Shown here piece by piece: positions 7,491 through 22,304 of a stretch of DNA of 33,104 nucleotides. This stretch comes from a virus. The first letter of the stretch is position 1, and every line of letters begins with the position of its first letter. The notes below the pieces were generated by a model. That model saw only the letters and a program-made list of their open reading frames with translations, was not told the origin of the DNA and did not search any database. Position numbers and translations under genes: made by a program. The DNA lies in IMG/VR virus record IMGVR_UViG_3300030118_000146, positions 1 to 33,104 of that record, one strand, 5' to 3'.

Positions 7491-8363
7491 ATGGCTGAAG
7501 CAGCTATTATAGCAGAAGAGATGCAACCAGAAAAGAAAGTTGCATTTGCAAATCGTAAATATACAAACGAAGAAAAACGTAAACGTGAAGAAGAAGAACT
7601 AGAGCAGCTTATAAAAGAAAATACAGGTGAAACAGAAGAACCTGTAGAACAAGAAGCTGAACCTACAAATGCAGAAGAGAAAACATTTAAAAAGCGTTAC
7701 TCTGATTTACGTAGGCATCAGCAAAAACAAGCTGAAGAGTTAAAGAAAGAGATTGATGATTTAAAGCGTCAGCTTTCTGTTGCAGCACAAAAGGAAATGA
7801 AGCTGCCTAAGTCAGATGAAGACATCGAAGAGTGGGCATCAGAATATCCTGATGTAGCAAAGATTGTAGAAACAATTGCTATGAAAAAAGCAGCAGAGCA
7901 ATCAAAACTGCTTGAAGACAGAGTAAAAGCAATTGACGAAATGCAACAGTCAGCTACAAAAGAAAAAGCTGAAGCTGAGTTAATGAGATTACATCCTGAC
8001 TTTGGAGATATTCGTGATAGTGATGATTTTCACGATTGGGCTGATGAGCAGCCTAAATGGGTACAGGATGCGTTGTATGAAAATGATAATGATGCACGGT
8101 CAGCAGCACGGGCTATTGACCTGTATAAAGCAGATAAAGGAATAAAAAGTGAGAAGAAGTCTAAGAAAGATAAAGGTGCTGCTGAAGCGGTGTCAACTAA
8201 AGGCAATAGAAGCGCACCTCAAGCAGACGAATCTTCCACTTATCTAACAGAGTCTCAAGTTCAGGCAATGTCAGCCGTTGAGTACGAGAAACGCTCTGAT
8301 GAAATCATGGAAGCTATTAGAGTAGGAAAGTTTATCTATGATATTTCTGGTTCTGCCAGATAA
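7491..8363 (+). CDS. Probable scaffolding protein
   Basis: 290 residues, highly charged and helical, directly before the major capsid gene, where podovirus scaffolds lie. The N-terminal third is Glu/Lys-rich with no cysteine. A coiled-coil stretch (about 70-105, LRRHQQKQAEELKKEIDDLK) follows, then a conserved-looking acidic section (WASEYPDVAKIVE, later HPDFGDIRDSDDFHDWADEQPKW). The C-terminal segment (YLTESQVQAMSAVEYEKRSDEIMEAIRVGKF) could be the coat-binding helix. Scaffolds direct coat assembly and leave the procapsid. A strong AAGGAG lies seven bases before the ATG. The call is by position and composition. Confidence 0.85.
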   Translation: MAEAAIIAEEMQPEKKVAFANRKYTNEEKRKREEEELEQLIKENTGETEEPVEQEAEPTNAEEKTFKKRYSDLRRHQQKQAEELKKEIDDLKRQLSVAAQKEMKLPKSDEDIEEWASEYPDVAKIVETIAMKKAAEQSKLLEDRVKAIDEMQQSATKEKAEAELMRLHPDFGDIRDSDDFHDWADEQPKWVQDALYENDNDARSAARAIDLYKADKGIKSEKKSKKDKGAAEAVSTKGNRSAPQADESSTYLTESQVQAMSAVEYEKRSDEIMEAIRVGKFIYDISGSAR

Positions 8364-8370
8364 AAAAGTG

Positions 8371-8398
8371 TTGACAAATAGTTATTTTTCAGTATAAC
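8371..8398 (+). promoter_or_regulatory. Sigma70-like promoter upstream of the major capsid gene
   Basis: A perfect -35 box TTGACA (8371-8376) is followed after 16 bases by TATAAC (8393-8398). It sits just after the scaffold stop and begins the 239-bp leader of the capsid gene. It would boost capsid transcription by the host RNA polymerase independently of upstream read-through. Confidence 0.65.
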
Positions 8399-8411
8399 TA
8401 TATGTGACCAA

Positions 8412-8441
8412 GTGTGGATGTATAGCGCAATATGTCCACAC
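8412..8441 (+). other. 12-bp hairpin in the capsid gene leader
   Basis: In RNA this forms a continuous 12-bp stem (GTGTGGATGTAT with ATATGTCCACAC, including two G-U pairs) closed by the six-base loop AGCGCA. It is not followed by a U-tract, so it is unlikely to be a terminator. It starts about 14 bases after the -10 box, so it would lie at or just after the 5' end of a transcript from that promoter; a 5'-terminal stem commonly protects mRNA from decay. Confidence 0.6.
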
Positions 8442-8495
8442 ATAATAGCAAACAAACACAGCTTACGGATTACCTGACGAATTTGGCCTGTTGAA

Positions 8496-8517
8496 TAGTA
8501 GGGCGGCCACCTTACTA
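8496..8517 (+). other. Second hairpin in the capsid gene leader
   Basis: TAGTAGGG pairs with CCTTACTA (8 bp, one G-U) around the loop CGGCCA. It lies about 85 bases before the capsid start codon. With the first hairpin it makes the leader structured and unlike the tightly packed junctions elsewhere. Between this hairpin and the AGGAG of the capsid gene no further feature was found. Confidence 0.5.
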
Positions 8518-8602
8518 GAATACACACCCAAGTGAATTAGCCTCTGATTAGTCTCGTGAGTTTGCATCTGTAGAAAAATGCTAAAACTTTAGGAGAAGAA
8601 AC

Positions 8603-9700
8603 ATGGCATTCGCAAAAGCTGCGGGTTATGGTAATCTTCCTAACGGTAATTTTTCGCCTATTATTTACAGCAAACAGGTGCAACTTGCTTTCCGCAAGGC
8701 TGCTGTTGCTGAGGCAATCACCAATAATGACTACTTTGGTGAAATTGCTCAAATGGGTGATTCCGTTAAGATTATTAAGGAACCCGAAATAACAGTTAAG
8801 GCATATGAGCGTGGTACTACTATCACTCCTCAAGACCTTGACGATGAAGAGTTCAGCCTAACAATTGACAAAGCTAACTACTTTGCATTTAAGGTTGATG
8901 ATATTGAAGAGGCGCACAGCCACGTTAACTTCCAATCTTTGGCAAGTGACCGTGCTGCATATCGCCTTGCTGACCAGTATGACCAAGATGTTCTTGGCTA
9001 TTTGTCAGGCTTTAAACAGTCAGCTATTCATGGAAAAGCTAATACTGTTAACACAACTGTTAACGGTGCTAAAGCTGTTTCAACAGCCTCTGATGGTGCA
9101 AACCTCGTAGGTGCTGAATTGCTTGCGTCTATGTCTTTGGACGCATCTGACTTTACTAATGCATCAGGTTCTGCAGGTTCTGCAAACAACTGTATTGGTA
9201 TCGAGCCACGTGCAGGTGGCGCAACGGCTGCTAAGTCTAGCACTGCTGGTAACGCATTTCCGCTGCAAATCATTGCACGTATGTCACGTCTGATGGACCA
9301 ACAGAATGTTGATACCCAAGGACGCTGGCTAGTTCTTGACCCGGTTTTCATTGAAGTATTGAAGGATGAAGATTCACGTCTTCTGAATTCTGACTTTGGT
9401 GGTTCTGGTCTTCAGAATGGTCTTGTTGTAAATAACCTTCACGGTTTCCAAGTTTACACATCTAACAACTTGCCTTCGCTGGGTACTGGCCCTGCAACTA
9501 CAGGCGGTGTTAATGCGTCAAACATGGGCATTATCGTGGCTGGTCATTCATCTGCTGTCGCAACTGCAGAGCAGATTAACAAGACTGAAACTTACCGTGA
9601 CCCTGACAGCTTTGCTGACATCGTTCGTGGTATGCATCTTTATGGCAGAAAGATTCTTCGTCCTGAAGCAATCGTAACTGCTGCTTACTGCTTGGCATAA
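8603..9700 (+). CDS. Major capsid protein
   Basis: 365 residues, following the scaffold gene and a dedicated promoter. The ribosome site is strong (AGGAG, seven bases before ATG). The N-terminus (GNLPNGNFSPIIYSKQVQLAFRKAAVAEAITNNDYFGEI) and the segments around VKAYERGTTITPQDLDDEEF, ASDRAAYRLADQYDQDVLGYL and ARMSRLMDQQNVDTQGRWLVLDP match the pattern of marine phage coat proteins expected to have the HK97 fold. The C-terminal part (VQVYTSNNLP-like region, then YGRKILRPEAIVTAAYCLA) also fits. It forms the icosahedral shell. Codon use is typical of a highly expressed gene, and no cleavage protease gene is visible nearby. Confidence 0.92.
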   Translation: MAFAKAAGYGNLPNGNFSPIIYSKQVQLAFRKAAVAEAITNNDYFGEIAQMGDSVKIIKEPEITVKAYERGTTITPQDLDDEEFSLTIDKANYFAFKVDDIEEAHSHVNFQSLASDRAAYRLADQYDQDVLGYLSGFKQSAIHGKANTVNTTVNGAKAVSTASDGANLVGAELLASMSLDASDFTNASGSAGSANNCIGIEPRAGGATAAKSSTAGNAFPLQIIARMSRLMDQQNVDTQGRWLVLDPVFIEVLKDEDSRLLNSDFGGSGLQNGLVVNNLHGFQVYTSNNLPSLGTGPATTGGVNASNMGIIVAGHSSAVATAEQINKTETYRDPDSFADIVRGMHLYGRKILRPEAIVTAAYCLA

Positions 9701-11020: not shown

Positions 11021-12997
11021 ATGGATGCATGGCAAACCTATCCTGTTGAGTTTCGTGGCGGTCTGATAACAAACTTATCTCCCCTTCAGCAGGGTATAAA
11101 TGCACCGGGAAGTGCAAGAATACTAAGAAACTATGAACCATCAGTAGAAGGTGGTTATAGAAGAATCGAAGGGTTTACGAAGTTTGATAGTGCTATTATA
11201 CCACCTTATGGTGCGCCAGTAGTTCACGGTGCTAGTCAAACAGGAACTACACTTATTATAGCTGCCTGTCACACAACACCTGTCGCAGGTGATACATTTC
11301 AAGTAGCAGGTGTTTCAGGAACTTACACTATAGCTTCTGGTGGTGTTAGCTTTGATGCTACCAATAATAGAGCAACACTAACATTAACAACTTCTCTTGC
11401 TAGTAGTCCAGCTAATGCTGCTGCTGTTACATTTTTAAGCACATCATCTAATTATTTAACTATAGGTGTAGCAGCATGGGAAGACAGTGCTATTGTCTGT
11501 AAAAATGCAGACATATTTAAATCTGGTGGTTCTGGATTTACTAAAATTAATGTGCCTGATTATGGCACACCTCTTGTAAATGGTGCTGGTCAAAGTGGCA
11601 GCACACTTGCAATTGATGGTTTAGATAGCGCACCTCAATTAGGAGATGCTTTTAAAATTGCTGGTGTAGATTTAATTTACACAGTTACTGCAGATGCAAC
11701 TGTATCATCTGGTGGTGCTACAATAAACATAAATCCTAATTTAGCTAGTAGTCCTGCTGATGATGCAGTTATTACATTTCTTTCTGTAAGTAGAGAAACT
11801 GCTGGCAAGACAAGGTTTGCTAAATATAACTTTAGTGGAACAGAAAAAATAGCAATAGTAGATGGTCTTAACGCACCAGCATTATATGACAATGCTACAT
11901 TTACTGTTCTTGATAGCGCACCAACAGGTGTTATAGGTGCATCTTTTGTTGAAGAAGCTAAAAAACATTTATTTTTTGCAAAAGGCAGTAACTTAACTTT
12001 TACTGCACCTTATACAGATTCAGACTTTACAGCAGCTAATGGCTCTGGTGTAATTAACGTAGGGACTACAATTACAGGTCTTGCTGTATTTAGGCAAAAT
12101 CTTATTATATTTACTGAGCGTAGTATACATCAATTACTAGGCACTACTATTGCAGATTTTAGCTTACAGCCAATTACAACAGATATAGGTTGTATTGACT
12201 CAGATACCATACAAGAGATTGCCGGGGATATTATGTTCCTTGCACCTGATGGATTAAGACTTGTAAGTGGTACAGATAGGATTGGAGATTTTGGACTAGC
12301 GTCCGTATCTAAAAATATTCAGTCTAACATGACAGCTTTTATTGCTGCTAATACAAGTTTTACAAGTTGTGTAATTAGAGAAAAGTCACAGTATAGAATA
12401 TTAGGTTTTAACAATAACATTACTGCAGAAAATGCTCAAGGAGTATTAGCTACACAATTTGCCCCACAAGGTGGTGAGGGTATGGCATGGGCTGAAACAC
12501 GAGGTATACGTGCAAACGTAGCAGATAGCAATTATAACGGCACTGTTGAAGTGGTGTTATTTTCAAATGATGATGGCTATTTGTATCAAATGGAAAGTGG
12601 TAATTCATTTGATGGAGATAATATTCAAACTACATTTGCTACTCCACACTTACCTATTAAAGACCCACGAATACGTAAAACATTTTATAAATTATTTTTG
12701 TATTCTGACCCGCAAGGTAGCGTAAACTTTGATGTTAGTTTAAAACTAGACTTTGATAGTTCAGGTACTATTCAGCCACCAGCTATTCGCATTCTTAATA
12801 CACAAGGACAAGTTGGATTTTTTGGTGTAGGCATATTTGGTTCTACAAGTTTTGGAAGCAAGCTACTTAAACTATTTGAAACACAAGTGGTAGGTTCAGG
12901 AAACACTGTATCTTTTCAATTTACATCCACAAGCACAGACCCGCCATATTCTATTGACGCATTGACAGTTGAGTATGCGACACATGACAGAAGGTAA
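11021..12997 (+). CDS. Tail nozzle-like protein (tail tubular protein B position) with duplicated insert
   Basis: 658 residues, following the adaptor, as T7 gp12-type nozzles do. The N-terminus (VEFRGGLITNLSPLQQG, ARILRNYEPSVEGGYRRIEGF) is the recognisable start of this phage family, and the C-terminal two thirds have beta-propeller-like repeats (VFRQNLIIFTERSIHQLLG, GDIMFLAPDGLRLVSG). Between them lie two copies of a domain of about 75-78 residues, at 63-140 and 181-255, both beginning YG-P-V-G and ending with SSPA and TFLS. The duplication makes the protein longer than it would otherwise be. It forms the distal tube through which DNA leaves. AAGGA sits before the ATG. Confidence 0.82.
   Translation: MDAWQTYPVEFRGGLITNLSPLQQGINAPGSARILRNYEPSVEGGYRRIEGFTKFDSAIIPPYGAPVVHGASQTGTTLIIAACHTTPVAGDTFQVAGVSGTYTIASGGVSFDATNNRATLTLTTSLASSPANAAAVTFLSTSSNYLTIGVAAWEDSAIVCKNADIFKSGGSGFTKINVPDYGTPLVNGAGQSGSTLAIDGLDSAPQLGDAFKIAGVDLIYTVTADATVSSGGATININPNLASSPADDAVITFLSVSRETAGKTRFAKYNFSGTEKIAIVDGLNAPALYDNATFTVLDSAPTGVIGASFVEEAKKHLFFAKGSNLTFTAPYTDSDFTAANGSGVINVGTTITGLAVFRQNLIIFTERSIHQLLGTTIADFSLQPITTDIGCIDSDTIQEIAGDIMFLAPDGLRLVSGTDRIGDFGLASVSKNIQSNMTAFIAANTSFTSCVIREKSQYRILGFNNNITAENAQGVLATQFAPQGGEGMAWAETRGIRANVADSNYNGTVEVVLFSNDDGYLYQMESGNSFDGDNIQTTFATPHLPIKDPRIRKTFYKLFLYSDPQGSVNFDVSLKLDFDSSGTIQPPAIRILNTQGQVGFFGVGIFGSTSFGSKLLKLFETQVVGSGNTVSFQFTSTSTDPPYSIDALTVEYATHDRR
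11207..11785 (+). repeat. Two copies of a 75-78 residue domain inside the nozzle-like protein
   Basis: Copy one spans 11207-11440 and copy two 11561-11785. Matched landmarks are YGAPVVHGASQTGTTL and YGTPLVNGAGQSGSTL at the start, GDTFQVAGV and GDAFKIAGV in the middle, and LASSPANAAAVTFLS and LASSPADDAVITFLS at the end. They have diverged at the DNA level, so the duplication is not very recent. Confidence 0.85.
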
Positions 12998-13002
12998 ATA
13001 AC

Positions 13003-14976
13003 ATGGGAACAGGTTATACCAGAAACGATACCGCTAATAATATTGCTGACGGTAACATTATTAACGCTGCAGACTTTGATGGCGAGTATGATGCCATTGA
13101 AGCTGCTTTTAATAGTAGTTCAGGACATACCCATGATGGCACATCCGGTGAAGGTGCGCCTGTTACTGTGCTTGGACCTGCTCAAGACTTTGTGGCTAGT
13201 ACAACTGAAATAAAACCAAAGACTAATAATACACTAGACATTGGCACAAGTCTTCTTAAATTTAAAGATGCTCACTTAGCTGGCACAGCTAATCTTGTAA
13301 ATCTAACTACCACTGGTGATGTTACTCTTACAGGCGCAGCTAACAATGTAGTGTTTGATGCTAGTGACAACGCATTAGAATTTGCTGATAGTGCTAAAGC
13401 TACCTTTGGTGACGCTGCAGATTTACAAATATTTCACGATGCATCAAATAGTATAGTCAGAGATTCAGGCACTGGTATATTAGCATTAGATGGTAGCACA
13501 GTAGAAATCAGAAAAAATGATGGCTCTGAAACTATGGCACAGTTTGTAGAAGATGGTGCTGTAAGTTTATACCATGATAATTCTGTCAAACTAGCAACAA
13601 CAGCAACAGGTGTTACCATTACTGGCTCACTAGCTATGGATGGTTTAAGTTTAGGAGACAATGAAAAAGTTCAACTTGGCACAGGAACAGACCTTGAACT
13701 ATACCATAATGGCACAGACAGTATTATAGAAAACAACACAGGCGAGTTATTTATTCAGGGTGATAATGTAACTCTCCGTAGCGACACAGGCACTGAAACT
13801 TTTATAGCTATGGATGTTAATGGTGCTGTTGAACTCTACCATAACAATGTAAAAAAGTTTGACACAGATGCAGATGGTGTAAACGTAACTGGTCAAATTG
13901 ATGTTAGTACAAATGCTAACATTAGCGGTAACATTAGTGTGCTTTCAGATGGTGGTGTTATAAAATTAGGTGTAGATGAAGAAATAACACTTACCCATGA
14001 ACACAACGTAGGTGTACAAGCTAAAGCAGCATCAGGTTTTGAACTTAACTTACAGACAGGTGATACGTCTGTTGAAAGTGGTAATGTCTTAGGTAAGATA
14101 ACCTTTAATGCTCCTGATGAGGGTAGTGGCACAGATGCTATTCTTGATGGTGCAGCTATTGAAGCTGTAGCTGAAGCTACCTTTGCTAGTGACAATAATT
14201 CTACTGCCCTTGTATTTAAAACAAATACATCTGCTGCTGCTACAGAACGTATGCGTATTAAGTCTGACGGTACTATTGTTATGGATACGCAAGTTGACAT
14301 TGATAACATTACTATTGATGGCAATACAATTAGTAGCACAGATACAAATGGTAATATTGCTATCACTCCAAATGGTACAGGCGAAGTTGACATTACCAAA
14401 GTAGATATTGATAGCGGTGCTATTGATGCTGTAACATTAGGTACTAATAGTGCTGTTACAGAACTGCAGGTAGATAATATTAATGTTAATGGCAACGCTA
14501 TTACATCTACAGATACTAATGGTAACATTGCACTTACACCAAATGGTACTGGTGAAGTTGATATTAGCAAAGTAGATATTGCTGCTGGTGAGATAGATGG
14601 TACAACAATAGGTGCTAACAGTGCTGCTGCTGGTACGTTTACTAATCTTACAGCAAGTACAAATTTAACACTTGCTTCTGGTGCAACAGTAACTGCCATT
14701 CTTGATGAAGATAATATGGCAACAGATAGTGCTACTGCTTTAGCTACTCAACAATCTATTAAAGCATATATAGCTACTCAGGTTGGTGCAGCAAGTAATA
14801 TAACAGATACAGGTATAACTTTTGAAGGTTCTTCTGCAGATGACCATGAAACAGTATTTGCTATAACCAATCCTACTGCAGACAGAACCTTTACATTTGC
14901 GGATGAATCAGGAACAGTTTCTACAAGGTCATTTGCAGAGGAATCAGCAACAGCATTAGCAATTGCACTTGGATAA
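13003..14976 (+). CDS. Repeat-rich tail fibre/spike protein
   Basis: 657 residues. The N-terminus (MGTGYTRNDTANNIADGN, then EYDAIEAAFNSSSGHTHDGT) is a marine phage fibre anchor. A 90-residue repeat follows, with copies starting at 13420 and 13690 (DLQIFHDASNSII-type and DLELYHNGTDSII-type). A 57-residue repeat starts at 14302 and 14473 (STDTNGNIA-TPNGTGEVDI). The protein is almost entirely beta-rich and acidic, fitting a trimeric shaft. It ends soon after a FTFADESGTVSTR segment, with no obvious C-terminal receptor-binding domain or chaperone domain. It may therefore serve as the fibre base to which the downstream adhesins attach. AAGG precedes the start. Confidence 0.85.
   Translation: MGTGYTRNDTANNIADGNIINAADFDGEYDAIEAAFNSSSGHTHDGTSGEGAPVTVLGPAQDFVASTTEIKPKTNNTLDIGTSLLKFKDAHLAGTANLVNLTTTGDVTLTGAANNVVFDASDNALEFADSAKATFGDAADLQIFHDASNSIVRDSGTGILALDGSTVEIRKNDGSETMAQFVEDGAVSLYHDNSVKLATTATGVTITGSLAMDGLSLGDNEKVQLGTGTDLELYHNGTDSIIENNTGELFIQGDNVTLRSDTGTETFIAMDVNGAVELYHNNVKKFDTDADGVNVTGQIDVSTNANISGNISVLSDGGVIKLGVDEEITLTHEHNVGVQAKAASGFELNLQTGDTSVESGNVLGKITFNAPDEGSGTDAILDGAAIEAVAEATFASDNNSTALVFKTNTSAAATERMRIKSDGTIVMDTQVDIDNITIDGNTISSTDTNGNIAITPNGTGEVDITKVDIDSGAIDAVTLGTNSAVTELQVDNINVNGNAITSTDTNGNIALTPNGTGEVDISKVDIAAGEIDGTTIGANSAAAGTFTNLTASTNLTLASGATVTAILDEDNMATDSATALATQQSIKAYIATQVGAASNITDTGITFEGSSADDHETVFAITNPTADRTFTFADESGTVSTRSFAEESATALAIALG
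13420..13950 (+). repeat. 90-residue tandem repeat in the fibre protein
   Basis: Two copies in register, 270 bases apart, each with an H-D/N turn after DLxxxxH, an N-S-I-V or D-S-I-I strand, then a GAV-LYH segment. The repeat is typical of fibre shafts built from stacked beta elements. Confidence 0.75.
14302..14640 (+). repeat. 57-residue tandem repeat in the fibre protein
   Basis: Two copies 171 bases apart. Both contain STDTNGNIA followed by TPNGTGEVDI and a KVDI strand. DNA identity is high over the core, suggesting a fairly recent duplication or recombination within the fibre. Confidence 0.75.
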
Positions 14977-15034: not shown

Positions 15035-15397
15035 ATGGCAAACACTTTTAAAGTTAAAACTAATGCAGCTATGCCAACTTCGGCAGGTACACCATTAGAT
15101 TTATACACAGTTCCATCTAGTACAACTAGTGTTGTATTAGGTCTTATGCTATGTAATATACATACAAGTCAGGTAACTGCTGATGTTAAACTGGTATCAA
15201 ATACAGCAGATACAGAAACAAATGAAACTGTTTTTCTAGTAAAAGATATTCCTATTCCAGCAGGTGCATCTGTAGAATTACTAGCGGGTAATAAAGTTGT
15301 TCTTCAATATGCAAATAGTTCTGGTGATAAAATACAAATTGACTGTGATGTTGCTGGAAAAATTGATGCTACTTTGAGTATTATGGAGATAACCTAA
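15035..15397 (+). CDS. Small beta-rich structural protein at the head of the fibre array
   Basis: 120 residues, directly behind the consensus promoter. The segments TPLDLYTVPSSTTSVVLGLMLCNIH, DVKLVSN and IPAGASVELLAGNKVVLQ describe a small beta sandwich like proteins I recall from marine phages near tail fibres. The function is not established; an adaptor or a capsid/tail-surface protein is likely. The GGAG ribosome site is good. The stop shares a base with the next start (TAATG). Confidence 0.75.
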   Translation: MANTFKVKTNAAMPTSAGTPLDLYTVPSSTTSVVLGLMLCNIHTSQVTADVKLVSNTADTETNETVFLVKDIPIPAGASVELLAGNKVVLQYANSSGDKIQIDCDVAGKIDATLSIMEIT

Positions 15398-16287
15398 TGC
15401 CTTATATAGGTACTAACCCAACAAATAGATTTTCATCTGTTGAGTACCAAGATTTAACGGGTGTTACTGGCAGTCCTGCAAAAAGAGGGTTTACCCTAAA
15501 TAATCCAGTTGGCAGTGCGAATGATATTGAAGTATTTGTAAATAATGTGCGGCAAGAGCCAAGTGTTGCATATACTGTAGATGGCACTACAACACTTACT
15601 ATGACAGGTGATGTAGAAACTACTGATGATTTTTATGTAGTGTTTCAGGCGCAGGCTATAGGTACTGCAACTCATCCTGCTGGAGCTTCTCTTCAGGCTG
15701 CAACTGGTACATTTAGTGGTGATGTAGATATTAACGGTAACAACTTAATATTAGATGCTGATGCAGACAGTAAGATTGAAGCAAGCACTGATGATACTAT
15801 TAATGTCGTGTCTGGTGGTAATACAGGATTGACTATTGATAGCACTGGACGTGTATTTAAACCAGCTATACCCTTTTTTGTTTTATTAGGAGGCAATGCA
15901 GGTGATAGTAACCATGATAATGGCGATACTCTTGGCAACACAACTCAAGGACACACTGCGTTTGCTACTTCTGGCTCAATAGCAGGTATACGTGGATTTA
16001 CATACACTAGTTCAACAGGAGTAATAGGTGTTCCTGTTGATGGTCTGTATCATATTGGGGGTAATGTTTTTAATAATAACACATCTCAAAGTATGATTAT
16101 AGCTTTATATCAAGGCTCTTCAATTATTTCATATGTTCAACAAGATTTAATTGGAAATGTTACATTAGACCTTGTTGCAAATTTATCAGCTGGAGACCAG
16201 CTTACATTTAGAAATGTAACAGGTAGCACCGTAACTATTTATGAAGGTCCAGCACATACACAAGTTTATGGGTATTTAATAGGATAA
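15397..16287 (+). CDS. Tail fibre with N-terminal MPYIG anchor and C-terminal C1q-like head
   Basis: 296 residues. Residues 1-95 form an anchor beginning MPYIGTNPTNRF, similar in layout to the start of the gene at 18195. Residues 100-150 are a short repetitive shaft (TFSGDVDINGNNLILDAD, ending GLTIDSTGRVFKP). Residues about 155-296 look like a C1q/TNF jelly-roll: a HTAFATSG strand, VPVDGLYHIGGNVF, ALYQGSSIISYVQQD, LVANLSAGDQLTFRN, and a final VYGYLIG. Such heads trimerise and often bind receptors. The start is coupled to the upstream gene by TAATG, and the next gene is a small chaperone-like protein. Confidence 0.82.
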   Translation: MPYIGTNPTNRFSSVEYQDLTGVTGSPAKRGFTLNNPVGSANDIEVFVNNVRQEPSVAYTVDGTTTLTMTGDVETTDDFYVVFQAQAIGTATHPAGASLQAATGTFSGDVDINGNNLILDADADSKIEASTDDTINVVSGGNTGLTIDSTGRVFKPAIPFFVLLGGNAGDSNHDNGDTLGNTTQGHTAFATSGSIAGIRGFTYTSSTGVIGVPVDGLYHIGGNVFNNNTSQSMIIALYQGSSIISYVQQDLIGNVTLDLVANLSAGDQLTFRNVTGSTVTIYEGPAHTQVYGYLIG

Positions 16288-16290
16288 ACT

Positions 16291-16521
16291 ATGGCAAACT
16301 ATAAAAATATTGTTTCTTATAATCCTGTATCTTCTAAACAGCCTCAATTTACTGCTGATGCTATATTAAAAGCAACGGATTGGACACAGCTACCAGATAG
16401 CGGTCTAACAGATAATTGCGTAGCCTTATTTAAAACGTATCGTGCTTCTATAAGAACTATACGCAAGACTAGTCCATCTAATCCAACGTGGCCTGATGCA
16501 CCTACAGAGGAGTGGTCATAA
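16291..16521 (+). CDS. Small tail-assembly-chaperone-like protein, copy 1
   Basis: 76 residues. The core LKATDWTQLPDSGLTDNC, then FKTYRASIRTIR, then WPDAPTEEWS, fits the phage tail-assembly chaperone pattern: a T-D-W motif, a Y-R-A-S/A-L/I-R helix and a C-terminal W-P. It is closest to the protein at 17991, with which it shares the C-terminal EEWS. It follows the C1q-type fibre and may help fold or trimerise it. Its last codons contain AGGAG, which serves as the ribosome site of the next gene, whose ATG overlaps its stop. Confidence 0.78.
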   Translation: MANYKNIVSYNPVSSKQPQFTADAILKATDWTQLPDSGLTDNCVALFKTYRASIRTIRKTSPSNPTWPDAPTEEWS

Positions 16522-17057
16522 TGGCATTATCTCAAATAAAAGCTACAAGCATGAGTGCTGACGCATTAAGTGGTTGGACTGAAACTGCCTCTATAGGAAC
16601 ACTTGATGCCGCAACAGAAACTATTACTGGTATACCTAGCACAATCACTGAATTATATATGGCTTGGGATAGTGTCACTCATTCTAGTGCTAGCCCGTCT
16701 GCTTGGGGCATACGATTAGGAATAAGTAGCGGCTTAGTAACAAGCGGATACAAGTCTTCTGTAAATTGGATTTACGACCCTAACAATGTTGTTGGTCATG
16801 TTGAAAATACGACTTTTGCAATTGGAGATATGGGAAGTTGGGGGTCAGGTTCTACTTGGTCAGGACAGTTTTATTTTTGGAATATAGATTCTAATACATG
16901 GGTATATAATGGGATTGTGAGAGATAGTGATGGTGATTATGACGTTGTAGAACATTGGGCTGGAAGAGTCGCTTTAGGTGGTACATTAGATAGAATTGGA
17001 ATGGTTGTTGGTGCTGGAACATTTAGTGGCGGTACAGTTAAGACGTATTACAAGTAG
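16521..17057 (+). CDS. Small fibre/adhesin, 178 residues
   Basis: The ATG at 16521 overlaps the previous stop (TAATG) and has AGGAG eight bases upstream; a GTG at 16512 without that advantage is less likely. The protein is Ser/Thr/Gly/Trp-rich and beta-structured: TASIGTLDAATETITGIPSTITELYMAWDSVTH, a tryptophan-rich WSGQFYFWNIDSN, and a terminal SGGTVKTYYK. It looks like a compact C-terminal adhesin or fibre head. No catalytic motif is seen. It is followed at once by another chaperone-like gene, continuing the cassette pattern. Confidence 0.72.
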   Translation: MALSQIKATSMSADALSGWTETASIGTLDAATETITGIPSTITELYMAWDSVTHSSASPSAWGIRLGISSGLVTSGYKSSVNWIYDPNNVVGHVENTTFAIGDMGSWGSGSTWSGQFYFWNIDSNTWVYNGIVRDSDGDYDVVEHWAGRVALGGTLDRIGMVVGAGTFSGGTVKTYYK

Positions 17058-17064
17058 GTGATTT

Positions 17065-17319
17065 ATGGCTATAGAAAAAAGAACTAATGCAATTACAGGT
17101 GAAGTAGAGCGAATAGAGTATACTCAGCCAACACTTACTGCTGAAGAAAAATTAAATTATTTGCGAACTGAACGTAATAAAAAACTACAGGCTACAGATG
17201 TTTGGGCTTTATCTGACCGCACTATGACACAAGCACAAAAAGATTATAGGCAAGCTCTGCGTGATATTACAAAAACAGCAACATCACTTGATGATGTGAG
17301 TTGGCCTGAAAAACCATAG
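17065..17319 (+). CDS. Tail-assembly-chaperone-like protein, copy 2
   Basis: 84 residues with the clearest version of the motif: LRTERNKKLQATDVWALSD, then QKDYRQALRDITKTA, ending DVSWPEKP. This is a classic phage tail-assembly chaperone pattern. Its N-terminal part (NAITGEVERIEYTQP) is also typical. It sits after the 178-residue fibre. AGGTG precedes the ATG. Confidence 0.85.
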   Translation: MAIEKRTNAITGEVERIEYTQPTLTAEEKLNYLRTERNKKLQATDVWALSDRTMTQAQKDYRQALRDITKTATSLDDVSWPEKP

Positions 17320-17328
17320 GGGAACAGT

Positions 17329-17988
17329 ATGAGCAGAGCAAGAGATTTAGCAGATGTAGCTGGAGGTCAAACTGTAGCTAACGCAACTCCAAGCGGTGGG
17401 CTGGTTTTAATAGAAAAGAAAACTGTGGCACAAGGTAGTGCATCCACTACAGCTTTTGATTTCACAAATTGTTTTTCCTCTTCTTACGATATTTACCAAG
17501 TTGAGTTTGATATTATAAGAAATGGAGATAGTGCGGCTAGACATATTTTTGCAAGTTTTTCAAATGCTAATACTCGTTTGACAAATAATGTTGTGGGAAT
17601 GTCAAGTTTCAATCAAGCGGGTGCAACCACTGATGGCAAATCATATCACACAAGTACTGATGGGGTGCATCAATTTGGTGGAACTATAGCTGCAACAGGG
17701 AGTGGAACCTTTACAGGGACTGCGAGGATTCACAATACTCAATCTACAACTTTAGCTAATCAAATAACAGGAAACTTAGTGATGAACCAATACTTGTCAA
17801 CTGATGTTGATGGCATTTGGCAAGAAGATTTTCTTTCTGTGGATGAATTCGGTGATTTATCAGGAACATCAACAGATATTCTTTTTGGCATAATCCAAGG
17901 GGATAGCCTTGGGACAGATGTTTCATTTTCAGCAACACAAGCTGCTGCTTTTGGAACTATATCTATCTTTGGCGTTAAAGGTGTTTAG
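17329..17988 (+). CDS. Tail fibre protein beginning MSRARDL
   Basis: 219 residues. The N-terminal MSRARDLADVAGGQ segment is a recurring start of marine phage fibre proteins. The rest is a beta-rich domain: SASTTAFDFTNCFSSSYDIYQ, an ARHIFASFSNAN strand, a FTGTARIHNTQ strand, and a C-terminal FGTISIFGVKGV. Its final strand resembles the end of the 178-residue protein, suggesting related heads. No enzyme motif is seen. AGGGGAA precedes the ATG. The next gene, two bases on, is a chaperone-like copy. Confidence 0.75.
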   Translation: MSRARDLADVAGGQTVANATPSGGLVLIEKKTVAQGSASTTAFDFTNCFSSSYDIYQVEFDIIRNGDSAARHIFASFSNANTRLTNNVVGMSSFNQAGATTDGKSYHTSTDGVHQFGGTIAATGSGTFTGTARIHNTQSTTLANQITGNLVMNQYLSTDVDGIWQEDFLSVDEFGDLSGTSTDILFGIIQGDSLGTDVSFSATQAAAFGTISIFGVKGV

Positions 17989-17990
17989 TT

Positions 17991-18194
17991 ATGAATAGTC
18001 AAATTGTATCTCAAAATCTTCTTGCTTCAACTGATTGGACACAATCACCAAATTCAGGTTTAACTGCTGATTGTGTTTCTGCGTTTGCAGCTTATAGAGC
18101 CTCTTTGCGTGCTATAAGGCGAAGAGATAATGCTAGCGTATCTGATACACAATCAGAAACATGGCCCACTGCGCCTAAAGAGGAGTGGTCATAA
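17991..18194 (+). CDS. Small tail-assembly-chaperone-like protein, copy 3
   Basis: 67 residues, close relative of copy 1: LLASTDWTQSPNSGLTADC, FAAYRASLRAIRR, and WPTAPKEEWS. The C-terminal EEWS and the preceding DNA (16 bases identical to the end of copy 1) again contain AGGAG that can serve the downstream ATG at 18195. It follows the MSRARDL fibre and precedes another MPYIG fibre. Confidence 0.78.
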   Translation: MNSQIVSQNLLASTDWTQSPNSGLTADCVSAFAAYRASLRAIRRRDNASVSDTQSETWPTAPKEEWS

Positions 18195-18869
18195 ATGCCG
18201 TATATAGGTAAATCCCCACAGTTTGGTGTTAGACAACGCTATTATTATACTGCATCTGGTAGCGAAACAACTTTGTCTGGAGTAGATGATAATGGTTTAA
18301 CACTTGCATTTACAGATGGCTTATACGTAGATGTTACGCTTAATGGTGTTACACTTGTTGCTGGTACAGACTACAACACAAACACTGCTAACACAATCGC
18401 TGGTTTATCTGCTCTATCTGCAAGTGATGTAGTTGAAGTTGTAGTGTACGATATATTTAGTGTAGCTGATACTGTGCCAGCTACAGGTGGTACATATACA
18501 GGAACTATTGTATACAACGGGGCAGTTACATATAACACAGGTTTACAGGGTAATACTAATACCTCTAGTGGTCTTACTTTAGACTTTGATACCTTTCAAA
18601 ACTTTTTTGTAACATTGTCTTCGGGGTCAAATACTTTAGCTAATCCAACCACAGAAGCAGGTAACATAGGTCAATCTGGTTTTATACTGTTTACTCAACC
18701 AAGTTCTAGTTCAGCAGGAACTCTTTCTGTTGCTAGTGATTATGAAGTACCGGGTGGCGGTGGTTCTATAACTCTTTCTTCTGCAAATAGTGCAGTTGAT
18801 TTAGTTCCTTATATTATAAAAGCAGATAACTCTATATTGTTGGGCCAACCACAGCTTGCTTTCTCATAG
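18195..18869 (+). CDS. Tail fibre with MPYIG anchor, no chaperone of its own behind it
   Basis: 224 residues. The anchor begins MPYIGKSPQFGVRQRYYYTASG and continues through DVTLNGVTLVAGTDY and DVVEVVVYDIFSVADTV; its beta-hairpin order matches the anchor of the gene at 15397. After about residue 100 comes a short beta-rich head (QGNTNTSSGLTLDFDTFQNFFVTLSSG, then GNIGQSGFILFTQ), ending SILLGQPQLAFS. The upstream stop is immediately followed by the ATG. Next is the 946-residue adhesin, so this may be its attachment base. Confidence 0.8.
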   Translation: MPYIGKSPQFGVRQRYYYTASGSETTLSGVDDNGLTLAFTDGLYVDVTLNGVTLVAGTDYNTNTANTIAGLSALSASDVVEVVVYDIFSVADTVPATGGTYTGTIVYNGAVTYNTGLQGNTNTSSGLTLDFDTFQNFFVTLSSGSNTLANPTTEAGNIGQSGFILFTQPSSSSAGTLSVASDYEVPGGGGSITLSSANSAVDLVPYIIKADNSILLGQPQLAFS

Positions 18870-18878
18870 GAAAAATAA

Positions 18879-21719
18879 ATGTCAGGTCCATTAGGCTCTT
18901 CACAGTGGTTTAAACCTAAAATATTTTATCCACATACCATAGACCAATCATTGCGGTTTGAGGATGGGGATGCTAATTATCTGCACAAGACACAAGTCTC
19001 TCCAACTTTAGAGAAAAAATATACTATATCTGCTTGGATTAAGTTGGGGAATATATCAGCCGCATCAAGAATGATTGTTGGTGGTTATGATAATTCTACA
19101 GGACAGTTTCCGTTTTACTTGCGAAGTGACCACAAACTAGGTTTTTATGACTCAGATGGTGTAAGCACATTTTATGCTTTGTATGGAAACAGTGTTTTGC
19201 GTGACCCATCAGCATGGTATCATGTTGTTTTAAATTTTGACTCTGCTAATGGAACAGCCGCAAGCAGAATTAGAATGTATATCAACGGTGATGAAGAAAC
19301 GGTTACAGGAACATTGCCGTCAAATAGACCGGGATATGCAAACCAAAGTGGAACGATTATTCAAGTTGGCGCATCAAATAATAGCACATCGAATCCATTT
19401 GATGGCTATATGGCAGAGGTTCATTTTATTGATGGTAGCGTTCTAGCCCCAACAGAGTTTGCTGAAACTAAAGCTGGCATTTGGATACCCAAAGATACCT
19501 CTGGCCTAACATTTGGAAACAATGGTTTTAGATTAAAGTTTCAAGATAGTTCTGCGCTTGGTGATGACACTAGTGGAGAAGGGCATGACTTAACCGCTAC
19601 CAGCGGTTGGAAAACAACTGACCAAGTACCAGACAGCCCTACGAATAATTGGTGTACACTTAATCCACTTTTTACAAACAGTGGCACTACTCAAACTTTT
19701 GCAGAGGGCAACCTAAAGTTTACAGCAGACAGTGGCTATGCTTTAGCAAATGGTACTTTTGCTATGCGCTCTGGAAAGTGGTATTGGGAAACATTAATAC
19801 AAGCACAAAATATTTCAAACGTAGGAATAACCAGAGGCACTAATGCAAATACATCAGCCTACGTTGGGTATGACGCTAATGGAAATGTGTTTGGTTTTGG
19901 TTATCAATCAACAATTATATATGGAGCATCTGGTGATGGCACAGCCTCTGGTGCAACATTAGCAACATCTCAAACAAGTTATACAACGGGTGATATAATT
20001 GGATGTTCGTTTGATGCTGATGCAGGTGAACTAAAGTTCTATAAAAATAATAGTTTAATTTATACAGTGTCTAGCATTAACACGCACGATTGGATGCCAG
20101 CCAACTCAGGTTACCAAACATCTAATATAAATGTAGTTAATTTTGGTCAAGATAGTTCTTTTGCTAATAATAAAACAAGTGGGTCAGCAAACGCATCAGA
20201 TGCGAATGGTGTGGGAAACTTTTTTTACAGCCCACCGTCTGGCTTCTTAGCCCTTTGTGCAGCCAACCTTTCTGACCCCGGTATTGACCCTAATGAAGAT
20301 GAAGAGTCAGAAGATTTTTTTAATACGTTGTTATACACTGGAGATGGCAATTCTAACCAAACTATTGGCTCTACTTCTCCTCATATATTACAATTTAATC
20401 CGGGTTTTGTTTGGATAAAAAGTAGAAGCAGTAACACTGGTCATCACAGTTTAGGCAATCGGGTTATTGGTGATTTCTTTATGAACTCCAATCAACAAGT
20501 AGATGAGTATGCTTTTAGCGCATTTAATTTTAATACGAATAATACTATTGACGTTCCAGTTTCTAGTAATGATTATTCAATGAACACAACTTCACAAACT
20601 TATATTGCATACAACTGGCTAGCTGGCAGTTCTACTCCAAGTAAAACCTATACAGTAAAAGTAGTTTCAGATAGTGGAAATAAATATAGATTTGATGATT
20701 TTGGTACAAGCGCAGTAACTTTAGATTTACAAGAAGGTGGAACCTATACGTTTGACCAATCAGATAGTTCAATGAGTTCACACCCCATGAAACTATCTGA
20801 AACAGCAAATGGAAGTCATAGTGGTGGTTCAACATATAACACGGGTGTAACTTATCAGTTAGATGGTTCTGACGTAACGGAATCTGCTTTTGTATCAGGA
20901 TTTAGTTCTGCTACAAGTCGCAAACTAATAATTACTGTAGCAGCGTCTGCACCTACTTTATATTATTTTTGTCATTATCACAGTGGTATGGGTGGTCAGA
21001 TAAACACTAATAGCACCTTTGGTTCTAGTAATTTTAGTGGGTCAATACAATCAAACGTTTCTGAAAATACTAAGTCAGGATTTAGTATAATTAGCTACAC
21101 AGGCACAGGTTCTGCAGCTACAGTGGGGCATGGTTTATCGCAAGCCCCAGAATGGATTCTTGCAAAGCAAAGAGATGCTAATTCTACAGACTGGTATATT
21201 TATCACTCTGCTTTAGGAGCGTCAGCTTATATAACATTAAATGGCAATGCGGCAGCAGTTACTTCTTCATCAGACCCGTGGAATGCAACTGCACCAACCA
21301 ATTCAGTGTTCTCTGTTAGTTCAGCAGGAAGCCCAAGCAGTTCAGGAACAATGATAGCATACTGTTTTCACAGTGTTGATGGCTACAGTAAAATCGGTTC
21401 ATACATAGGCAATGGACAACCTGACGGCACATTTGTTTACACAGGATTTCGTGTTGCATATCTTTTGTTAAAAAGAACGAACGCACTTAACGATTGGGTG
21501 TTACAAAATAACAAATCTAATACAGATAATCCTGTTGATTTAACAATAACTCCAAATGAAACTTATAACGAGTTTGGACCAAATGCTGTTTATAATGTTG
21601 ATTTTTTAAGTAATGGATTTAAAATTAGAAATAACGCAGTTCCTTGGAACGCATCAGGCGGTGCTTACGCTTACCTTGCTTTTGCAGAACAACCCTTTAA
21701 ATATGCTAATGCTCGATAG
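18879..21719 (+). CDS. Large multidomain adhesin: LamG-like, SPRY-like, cupredoxin-like and repeat domains
   Basis: 946 residues, the largest fibre-region protein. Residues about 22-186 look like a LamG/concanavalin domain (LRFEDGDANYL, YTISAWIKL, WYHVVLNFDS, MYINGDEE, YMAEVHFIDG). Residues about 280-425 look like SPRY (KWYWETLIQAQNISNVGI, GDIIGCSFDADAGELKFYKN, YTVSSIN). Residues about 588-712 look like a cupredoxin, with H635 in SSHPM and C698, H701, M704 in FCHYHSGMGG. Residues 480-582, 735-840 and 838-946 are three related modules (LLYTGDG, IISYTGTG, IGSYIGNG). It is probably exposed and binds host glycans or proteins. The cupredoxin-like part interrupts the repeat series, which suggests insertion. 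AGGAAAA precedes the ATG. Confidence 0.87.
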   Translation: MSGPLGSSQWFKPKIFYPHTIDQSLRFEDGDANYLHKTQVSPTLEKKYTISAWIKLGNISAASRMIVGGYDNSTGQFPFYLRSDHKLGFYDSDGVSTFYALYGNSVLRDPSAWYHVVLNFDSANGTAASRIRMYINGDEETVTGTLPSNRPGYANQSGTIIQVGASNNSTSNPFDGYMAEVHFIDGSVLAPTEFAETKAGIWIPKDTSGLTFGNNGFRLKFQDSSALGDDTSGEGHDLTATSGWKTTDQVPDSPTNNWCTLNPLFTNSGTTQTFAEGNLKFTADSGYALANGTFAMRSGKWYWETLIQAQNISNVGITRGTNANTSAYVGYDANGNVFGFGYQSTIIYGASGDGTASGATLATSQTSYTTGDIIGCSFDADAGELKFYKNNSLIYTVSSINTHDWMPANSGYQTSNINVVNFGQDSSFANNKTSGSANASDANGVGNFFYSPPSGFLALCAANLSDPGIDPNEDEESEDFFNTLLYTGDGNSNQTIGSTSPHILQFNPGFVWIKSRSSNTGHHSLGNRVIGDFFMNSNQQVDEYAFSAFNFNTNNTIDVPVSSNDYSMNTTSQTYIAYNWLAGSSTPSKTYTVKVVSDSGNKYRFDDFGTSAVTLDLQEGGTYTFDQSDSSMSSHPMKLSETANGSHSGGSTYNTGVTYQLDGSDVTESAFVSGFSSATSRKLIITVAASAPTLYYFCHYHSGMGGQINTNSTFGSSNFSGSIQSNVSENTKSGFSIISYTGTGSAATVGHGLSQAPEWILAKQRDANSTDWYIYHSALGASAYITLNGNAAAVTSSSDPWNATAPTNSVFSVSSAGSPSSSGTMIAYCFHSVDGYSKIGSYIGNGQPDGTFVYTGFRVAYLLLKRTNALNDWVLQNNKSNTDNPVDLTITPNETYNEFGPNAVYNVDFLSNGFKIRNNAVPWNASGGAYAYLAFAEQPFKYANAR

Positions 21720-21728
21720 GAGATAACC

Positions 21729-22304
21729 ATGCCGTGGAAATATGGCAATAAAATAATTAAAGAAGGACGTGGTTGGACAGATGATGCTGGCACAAAGCAT
21801 CCTTATAACTGGAACATTTGGTCTGATACTGACAAAAAAGCAGCAGGGCTAACATGGGAAGACCCACCTGCATCTGAAGCATATTATGATAATCGTTTTT
21901 ATTGGGGTAGACAAGCTGACGGAACTCTTATACCAAAGTCACTTACTGATGTTAAGGCAGTTGATGATGATGACAAAGCAATTATTGACCCCATGACAGG
22001 TAAACAATTAGTCACAAAGGGATTGAAAACAATTTATATTGAGCAAACAAAGCAGACTGCAAATGATAAATTATCTGCAACAGATTGGTATGTCACAAGA
22101 AAAACAGAGGACAGCACCACAACAATACCGTCAGACGTTACAACATTTAGGGCGGCAGTTCGCACCAAATCTGGACAGATAGAAACAGCCATAACAAATG
22201 CGGCTGACCATGCAGCATTTATGGCTTTGTTTGATACGCCTGTTGATAGTGATGGTAAACCTACAGGTAACGCACCAATAAATGATTGGCCTGATGAGTT
22301 ATAA
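21729..22304 (+). CDS. Chaperone-like protein with extended N-terminus, copy 4
   Basis: 191 residues. The N-terminal half (MPWKYGNKIIKEGRGWTDD, then HPYNWNIWSDTDKKAAGLTWEDPP) is a well-marked marine phage domain. The C-terminal half carries the chaperone-like core (LSATDWYVTRKTEDSTT, then VTTFRAAVRTKSGQIETAI), ending APINDWPDEL. It follows the 946-residue adhesin and probably helps its folding or attachment. A strong AGGAG site precedes the ATG. Confidence 0.8.
   Translation: MPWKYGNKIIKEGRGWTDDAGTKHPYNWNIWSDTDKKAAGLTWEDPPASEAYYDNRFYWGRQADGTLIPKSLTDVKAVDDDDKAIIDPMTGKQLVTKGLKTIYIEQTKQTANDKLSATDWYVTRKTEDSTTTIPSDVTTFRAAVRTKSGQIETAITNAADHAAFMALFDTPVDSDGKPTGNAPINDWPDEL

Follow-up and report, generated by a model that had tools for sequence, protein, structure and literature searches.

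A putative host-recognition array of exchangeable fibre-chaperone cassettes in an HMO-2011-type marine podovirus

Why would a phage interrupt a row of fibre genes again and again with small chaperone-like genes, and what could these small proteins do? The question is raised by the stretch of DNA analysed here, referred to as the window, which comprises the first 33.1 kb (33,104 nucleotides) of the 55,779-base virus record IMGVR_UViG_3300030118_000146. The major capsid protein of the record is 79.7% identical to that of the Puniceispirillum phage HMO-2011, and the gene at 11021 encodes a tail protein with 66% identity to that of Roseobacter phage CRP-345. Because of this capsid and tail gene homology, the record is assigned by sequence to the HMO-2011-type marine podoviruses, which are reported to be among the most abundant phages in the ocean (PMC6918029). 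The DNA polymerase of the group carries two CXXCXGXG motifs (a partial DnaJ domain) inside (PMC6918029), and two such motifs are found in a 680-aa protein of the same record (stretch L476, 3874-5913, minus strand). At 7913-8809 (minus strand) this stretch also encodes a 299-aa putative tyrosine integrase, judged from its N-terminal sequence; if correct, this would suggest a temperate member.

The region between 15397 and 22304 holds five fibre or adhesin genes and four genes for small proteins, and every open reading frame was found where the earlier note had placed it. The genes of the window described in the following lie on the plus strand. Upstream of the array, a tail-fibre-like protein of 657 aa (13003-14976) matches phrog_13518 and phrog_8745 and has no small chaperone gene behind it. 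The start of the array is adjoined by a small conserved gene for a 120-aa protein (15035-15397, beginning MANTFKVKTNAAMP), which matches phrog_26609 and phrog_1276, both of unknown function, and has relatives encoded in at least 585 matched IMG/VR stretches. Fibre 1 (15397-16287; phrog_18673, tail fiber) consists of an MPYIG-type N-terminal anchor (approximately 15397-15733), which occurs in about 90 unique proteins among the loci compared, and a beta-sandwich tip (approximately 15964-16284). Its AlphaFold2 model is of moderate confidence (pLDDT 69.6). The top Foldseek match of the tip is a cyanophage tail-complex protein and the best solved matches are trimers of the TNF/C1q family (EDA-A1, collagen VIII NC1 and Cbln1; E approximately 1e-6, TM on target approximately 0.6-0.79); the tip is thus modelled as a TNF/C1q-like jelly-roll beta sandwich.

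Behind fibre 1 follows chaperone 1 (76 aa, 16291-16521) and then fibre 2 (178 aa, 16521-17057), which is recognized by its position, by the MALSxI N-terminus that is common to other array fibres, and by the chaperone gene found behind it in 7/7 relatives. Its start is the ATG at 16521; the GTG at 16512 falls within the end of the preceding gene. Chaperone 2 (84 aa, 17065-17319) is followed by fibre 3 (219 aa, 17329-17988), which begins with MSRARDLA and has a chaperone gene behind it in 3/4 relatives and none in the remaining one, and by chaperone 3 (67 aa, 17991-18194). Then come an MPYIG-anchor protein of 224 aa (18195-18869), a large adhesin of 946 aa (18879-21719) with DUF7483 (2.2e-79) and SPRY (1.3e-8) domains in Pfam and a strong match to phrog_19943 (3.6e-162), and finally a small protein of 191 aa (21729-22304). 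For fibre 2, fibre 3 and the protein at 18195, no useful family was found in Pfam or PHROGs.

The motifs that had been noticed before in all four small proteins (T-D-W/V, [FY]-R-x-[AS]-x-R and W-P) are indeed present in each of them, and sharing by chance was ruled out by profile E-values. When the full 55.8-kb record is scanned with a profile made from 68 relatives, there are exactly four matches, and these are the four small genes (E-values 9e-34, 1e-23, 5e-19 and 6e-6). Chaperones 1 and 2 match the family PF16778 (Phage_tail_APC, hence APC) above its gathering score with E=6.7e-8 and E=1.4e-13, respectively, and chaperone 3 comes just below the 26.6-bit cut-off (26.0 bits, E=8.5e-6). The same family is matched by 68/68 aligned relatives at E<0.001, an alignment that includes chaperone 3 itself, and it has a solved relative (2KZ6, E=1.5e-14). 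These three proteins combine a variable N-terminal arm of approximately 12-40 residues with a conserved C-domain: in chaperone 1 an arm of NYKNI type (16291-16350) precedes the C-domain (16351-16518), and in chaperone 3 the arm is short, with the C-domain starting at about codon 14. The product of 21729 is different. The protein itself has no Pfam match to PF16778, and only 2/31 of its relatives match the family at E<0.1; nevertheless, a profile-profile comparison (hhalign) with the small APC family gives 91% probability over 44 columns that cover the TDW...FRAAVR core. Its AlphaFold2 model (mean pLDDT 88.8) has a beta-rich part (residues 1-97) and a helical hairpin (99-127/135-156, within 99-156), and a Foldseek search of this 191-aa model against the PDB gave no confident solved match. 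Hence, the earlier view of four proteins of one kind holds for three of them, which form one family with a solved relative, but the fourth appears to be a separate two-domain branch that distantly shares the core behind its own beta-rich front domain.

That each fibre is followed by its own chaperone, as was claimed before, applies to the genes at 15397, 16521 and 17329 and to the adhesin at 18879, but not to 18195. Although the latter starts with an N-terminus of the same kind as fibre 1, its relatives have no APC behind them and a DUF7483-type adhesin directly next in 18/18 cases, which also rules out that 18195 has lost a chaperone. DUF7483-type adhesin tips in turn are followed by a 21729-type gene in 48/53 cases. 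We therefore group 18195, 18879 and 21729 into one three-gene cassette, in which 18195 is likely the proximal partner of the adhesin. Counted in this way, the array comprises four cassettes and not five fibre-chaperone pairs, the other three being the two-gene cassettes 15397+16291, 16521+17065 and 17329+17991. Exceptions exist in another phage record (L475, 1109-10345, reverse complement), which has two copies of the 18195-type plus DUF7483-type adhesin cassette with a 191-aa-type chaperone behind the first copy only, as well as a homologue of fibre 3 with 75% identity, whose gene is not directly followed by that of a chaperone. The pairing is therefore strong but not obligatory. The dependence on a chaperone may vary, with phage A5 as a parallel; alternatively, a single chaperone could act in trans, for which the two adhesin cassettes with a single chaperone are a possible example.

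The pairing was followed across relatives in a first data set, in which 136 loci contributed 175 unique APC genes. In 164/171 cases, the distance to the preceding gene is within 50 nt, and two of the preceding genes are APC genes themselves. Among pairs in which the fibre end (last 80 residues) is conserved and the downstream gene is not, 353 have similar APC proteins and 8 have dissimilar ones; where conservation is limited to the downstream gene, the corresponding numbers are 148 and 230. Thus, the fibre C-terminus predicts the type of APC whatever gene comes next, with the caveat that these pair counts are non-independent and dominated by a 31-member adhesin family. All 31/31 adhesin-type tips occur with the 191-aa APC type, across 18 downstream families. 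Without the 31-member family, 35/242 arm-similar pairs still share their fibre ends (permutation mean 1.9, maximum 8), and without the 191-aa type the first data set retains 45 pairs with conserved fibre ends. Scans with fibres 2 and 3 yielded three loci each, too few for statistics. Among named phages, APC genes number three in Melnitz-3, two each in HMO-2011 and CRP-212 and one each in CRP-603 and HTVC115P, and none was found in the stretch examined of the HMO-2011-type phages CRP-345 and CRP-207. Arrays with three APC genes are present in several IMG/VR contigs; because most contigs are fragments, the counts per phage are lower bounds.

Two relatives indicate what is exchanged. In L082, the flanking non-fibre genes are 87-100% identical to those of the window; slots 1 and 3 are replaced and slot 2 is kept, in each case in fibre and chaperone alike. 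The entire chaperone was exchanged in slot 1, while in slot 3 identity resumes at 18030, which is codon 14 of chaperone 3. The second relative, L249, belongs to a separate lineage with upstream tail proteins of 36-43% identity to the window. Nevertheless, it shares with window positions 16351-17363 a block of 1,013 bp at 91.3% DNA identity, which begins at codon 21 of chaperone 1 and takes in both fibre 2 and chaperone 2. The anchor of its fibre 1 is 79% identical, and the fibre 1 tip and the chaperone 1 arm are unrelated. Joint exchange of a fibre and its small gene between related phages is therefore borne out by slots 1 and 3 of L082 and by cassette 2 of L249, as the earlier note had supposed for exchangeable host-recognition cassettes. 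Of the two outcomes that the note named as fatal to its idea, small proteins without a common fold and the lack of any joint exchange, neither was observed. Whole genes as the exact unit of exchange, however, were ruled out by the breakpoints inside the chaperone gene: the unit that is swapped in these cases is the tip together with the arm, across the gene boundary, and the C-domain stays behind.

A second set of 54 non-redundant cassettes was collected by a scan with chaperone 1 and shares a few loci with the first set. In it, arm similarity follows the similarity of the upstream fibre tips (r=0.55, Mantel p=0.0005), also after removal of the C-domain and the fibre N-terminus (partial r=0.57), and the C-domain has no signal of its own (partial r=-0.13). 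NYKNI-type arms pair with tips that end in an FSGYLVG-like strand, on several fibre N-termini (42/3/1/8, Fisher p=1.3e-6); the two motif patterns were chosen after viewing the first set and the counts are not phylogenetically independent. In two respects the small proteins thus resemble Tfa-type chaperones: the gene lies directly 3' of the fibre gene, and the product seems to join a variable N-terminal part that is specific to the fibre C-terminus to a conserved C-terminal part.

The closest described architecture is gp24-gp25 of phage Pam3 (PDB 7YPX), where gp25 sits with a non-conserved N-domain on a TNF-like tip, comparable to the one modelled for fibre 1, has a conserved helical trimerising C-domain and is absent from virions (PMC9608196). 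In Pam3, however, there is one described pair with a 162-residue chaperone containing a full beta-sandwich, whereas here three chaperones are of 67-84 aa and four of them are found in a single genome. The marine Alteromonas phages V22 (gp26-gp27) and A5 (gp8-gp9) are likewise reported to have a fibre and cognate chaperone that are shared horizontally by distant phage families, with gp27 being essential in V22 and the A5 fibre being independent of its chaperone (PMC7289586, PMC10579305). Different from the window, these are DUF4376 chaperones of 195-240 aa with a single pair per phage, and the accessible text describes no breakpoints within the chaperone. The Tfa proteins of Mu and lambda also place a variable N-domain on the fibre C-terminus and have a conserved C-domain, and a weak profile link connects the small proteins to the PHROG tail fiber assembly families 188 and 136; however, the proteins here are much shorter, and PF02413 (Caudo_TAP/Tfa) matched none of the four at E<=1.

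By the analogy to Pam3, V22 and A5, the small proteins are therefore read as miniature Tfa-like chaperones, and we consider it probable (approximately 0.78) that the region is a host-recognition array of exchangeable fibre-chaperone cassettes, in which the arm would bind the tip and the C-domain would trimerise. Most likely, the variable arm attaches to the tip of whichever fibre is encoded immediately upstream. The conserved helical C-domain would then gather three copies, so that folding of the trimeric fibre could begin at the tip, and the chaperone would afterwards probably be released, and thus be missing from virions, or kept as a cap. Between phages, the fibre tip and the chaperone arm would be exchanged, with the fibre N-terminal anchor on one side and the chaperone C-domain on the other as constant seams, the last codons of the latter also containing, in all likelihood, the ribosome-binding site for the fibre that follows.

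Other explanations of the same data need to be considered. The arm could simply be unmatched to the tip and travel along with it, since recombination needs the homology of the C-domain and no crossover would fall into the few bases between them. The position of the breakpoints in the conserved C-domain is in line with such hitch-hiking, and so is the distance between tip and arm of a few nucleotides (median gap 5 nt). However, the junction between the APC C-domain and the next fibre is equally close and is uncoupled (r=0.09 and 0.00), which is evidence against linkage alone, although linkage may still contribute. Moreover, the arm-tip correlation holds when the N-termini of the fibres are unrelated (0.535), and in the Pam3 and Mu structures it is the variable N-domain that sits on the fibre tip. 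Hence, pure hitch-hiking appears improbable. A role of the small proteins as permanent virion caps, which may even bind the receptor themselves, has its precedents in gp38 of S16 and Tfa of Mu, both of which remain on the fibre tip. For A5, it is reported that gp9 binds its fibre, is dispensable for activity and was proposed as a transient cap (PMC10579305). On the other hand, Pam3 virions lack gp25, the protein that comes closest in architecture, V22 gp27 is described as lying outside the final fibre complex, and arms of approximately 12-40 residues leave little room for a receptor-binding module, which makes this role unlikely for the array.

More weight, but still with considerable doubt, can be given to a composite tail tip, in which all fibres are present in each virion and play different structural roles. 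The slot order is the same in the window and in L082, and 18195 and 18879 are adjacent in 18/18 cases; these two therefore probably act together. Against one composite structure, relatives gain, lose and replace single slots, and CRP-345 and CRP-207 lack the array. We infer that the cassettes rather represent alternative tools for host range, with tips that would recognise different receptors, than parts of a composite tip.

Chaperones 1 and 3 end in EEWS, encoded by GAG-GAG-TGG-TCA-TAA, and the ATG of the following gene overlaps this end or adjoins it (GAGGAG-TGG-TCA-TAATG); the end of chaperone 2 differs. The seam GAGGAGTGGTCATAATG (16507-16523) contains the end of chaperone 1, a Shine-Dalgarno sequence and the overlapping start of fibre 2; correspondingly, GAGGAGTGGTCATAAATG (18180-18197) contains the end of chaperone 3 and the start of 18195. 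Across the relatives, the Glu codons of the seam are GAG in 106/114 cases compared to 39/133 elsewhere in the same genes, and the codons around them are unusually uniform as well. Hence, the Shine-Dalgarno sequence for the following fibre very likely lies within the end of the chaperone gene, and the seam may double as a recombination site. Going further, the chaperone gene could be what links the members of a plug-in array without a fixed length, with tip and arm as the mobile specificity unit that crosses the gene boundary, and the C-domain and 3' end as a universal docking seam for any next fibre; this idea is tentative, and we hold the case for it to be slightly short of balanced.

Fibre-chaperone pairs, the modular build of Tfa proteins and the transfer of such modules are already known. 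Our literature search, with most subscription journals outside its scope, found no phage with several cognate mini-chaperones, no tip-plus-arm unit of exchange and no ribosome-binding site in a chaperone gene end. The pelagimyophage host recognition cluster is a similarly hypervariable multi-fibre island, but the accessible part of its description mentions no fibre-chaperone pairing (PMC7029224). If a pairing code between tip and arm can be read, cognate pairs would become predictable from metagenomes and the arm could indicate the fold of the tip. Furthermore, a change of host range without misfolded fibres would become testable, as tip and helper would travel together as a single crossover unit. 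The APC family, whose members are mostly annotated as hypothetical, could then serve as a marker of receptor-binding genes.

Within the group itself, HMO-2011 (gp28-gp41, GU557055) has a comparable row of small fibres with two APC genes, one of NYKNI type behind a C1q-type fibre. In contrast to the window, HMO-2011 has no more than two APC genes for about eleven fibre-like ones, with annotations as tail-related or fibre proteins, and the pairing went unremarked. In the same phage (L163, 20000-36000), five small fibre-like proteins (gp29, gp32, gp34, gp37 and gp40) have a short motif at the C-terminus in common, the last residues of which are GDLA. Their genes and other fibre genes come in alternation, forming a second kind of repeated fibre module without APC. 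In pelagiphage HTVC115P (L166, 511-960), a gene annotated as toxin-activating lysine-acyltransferase lies among the tail genes.
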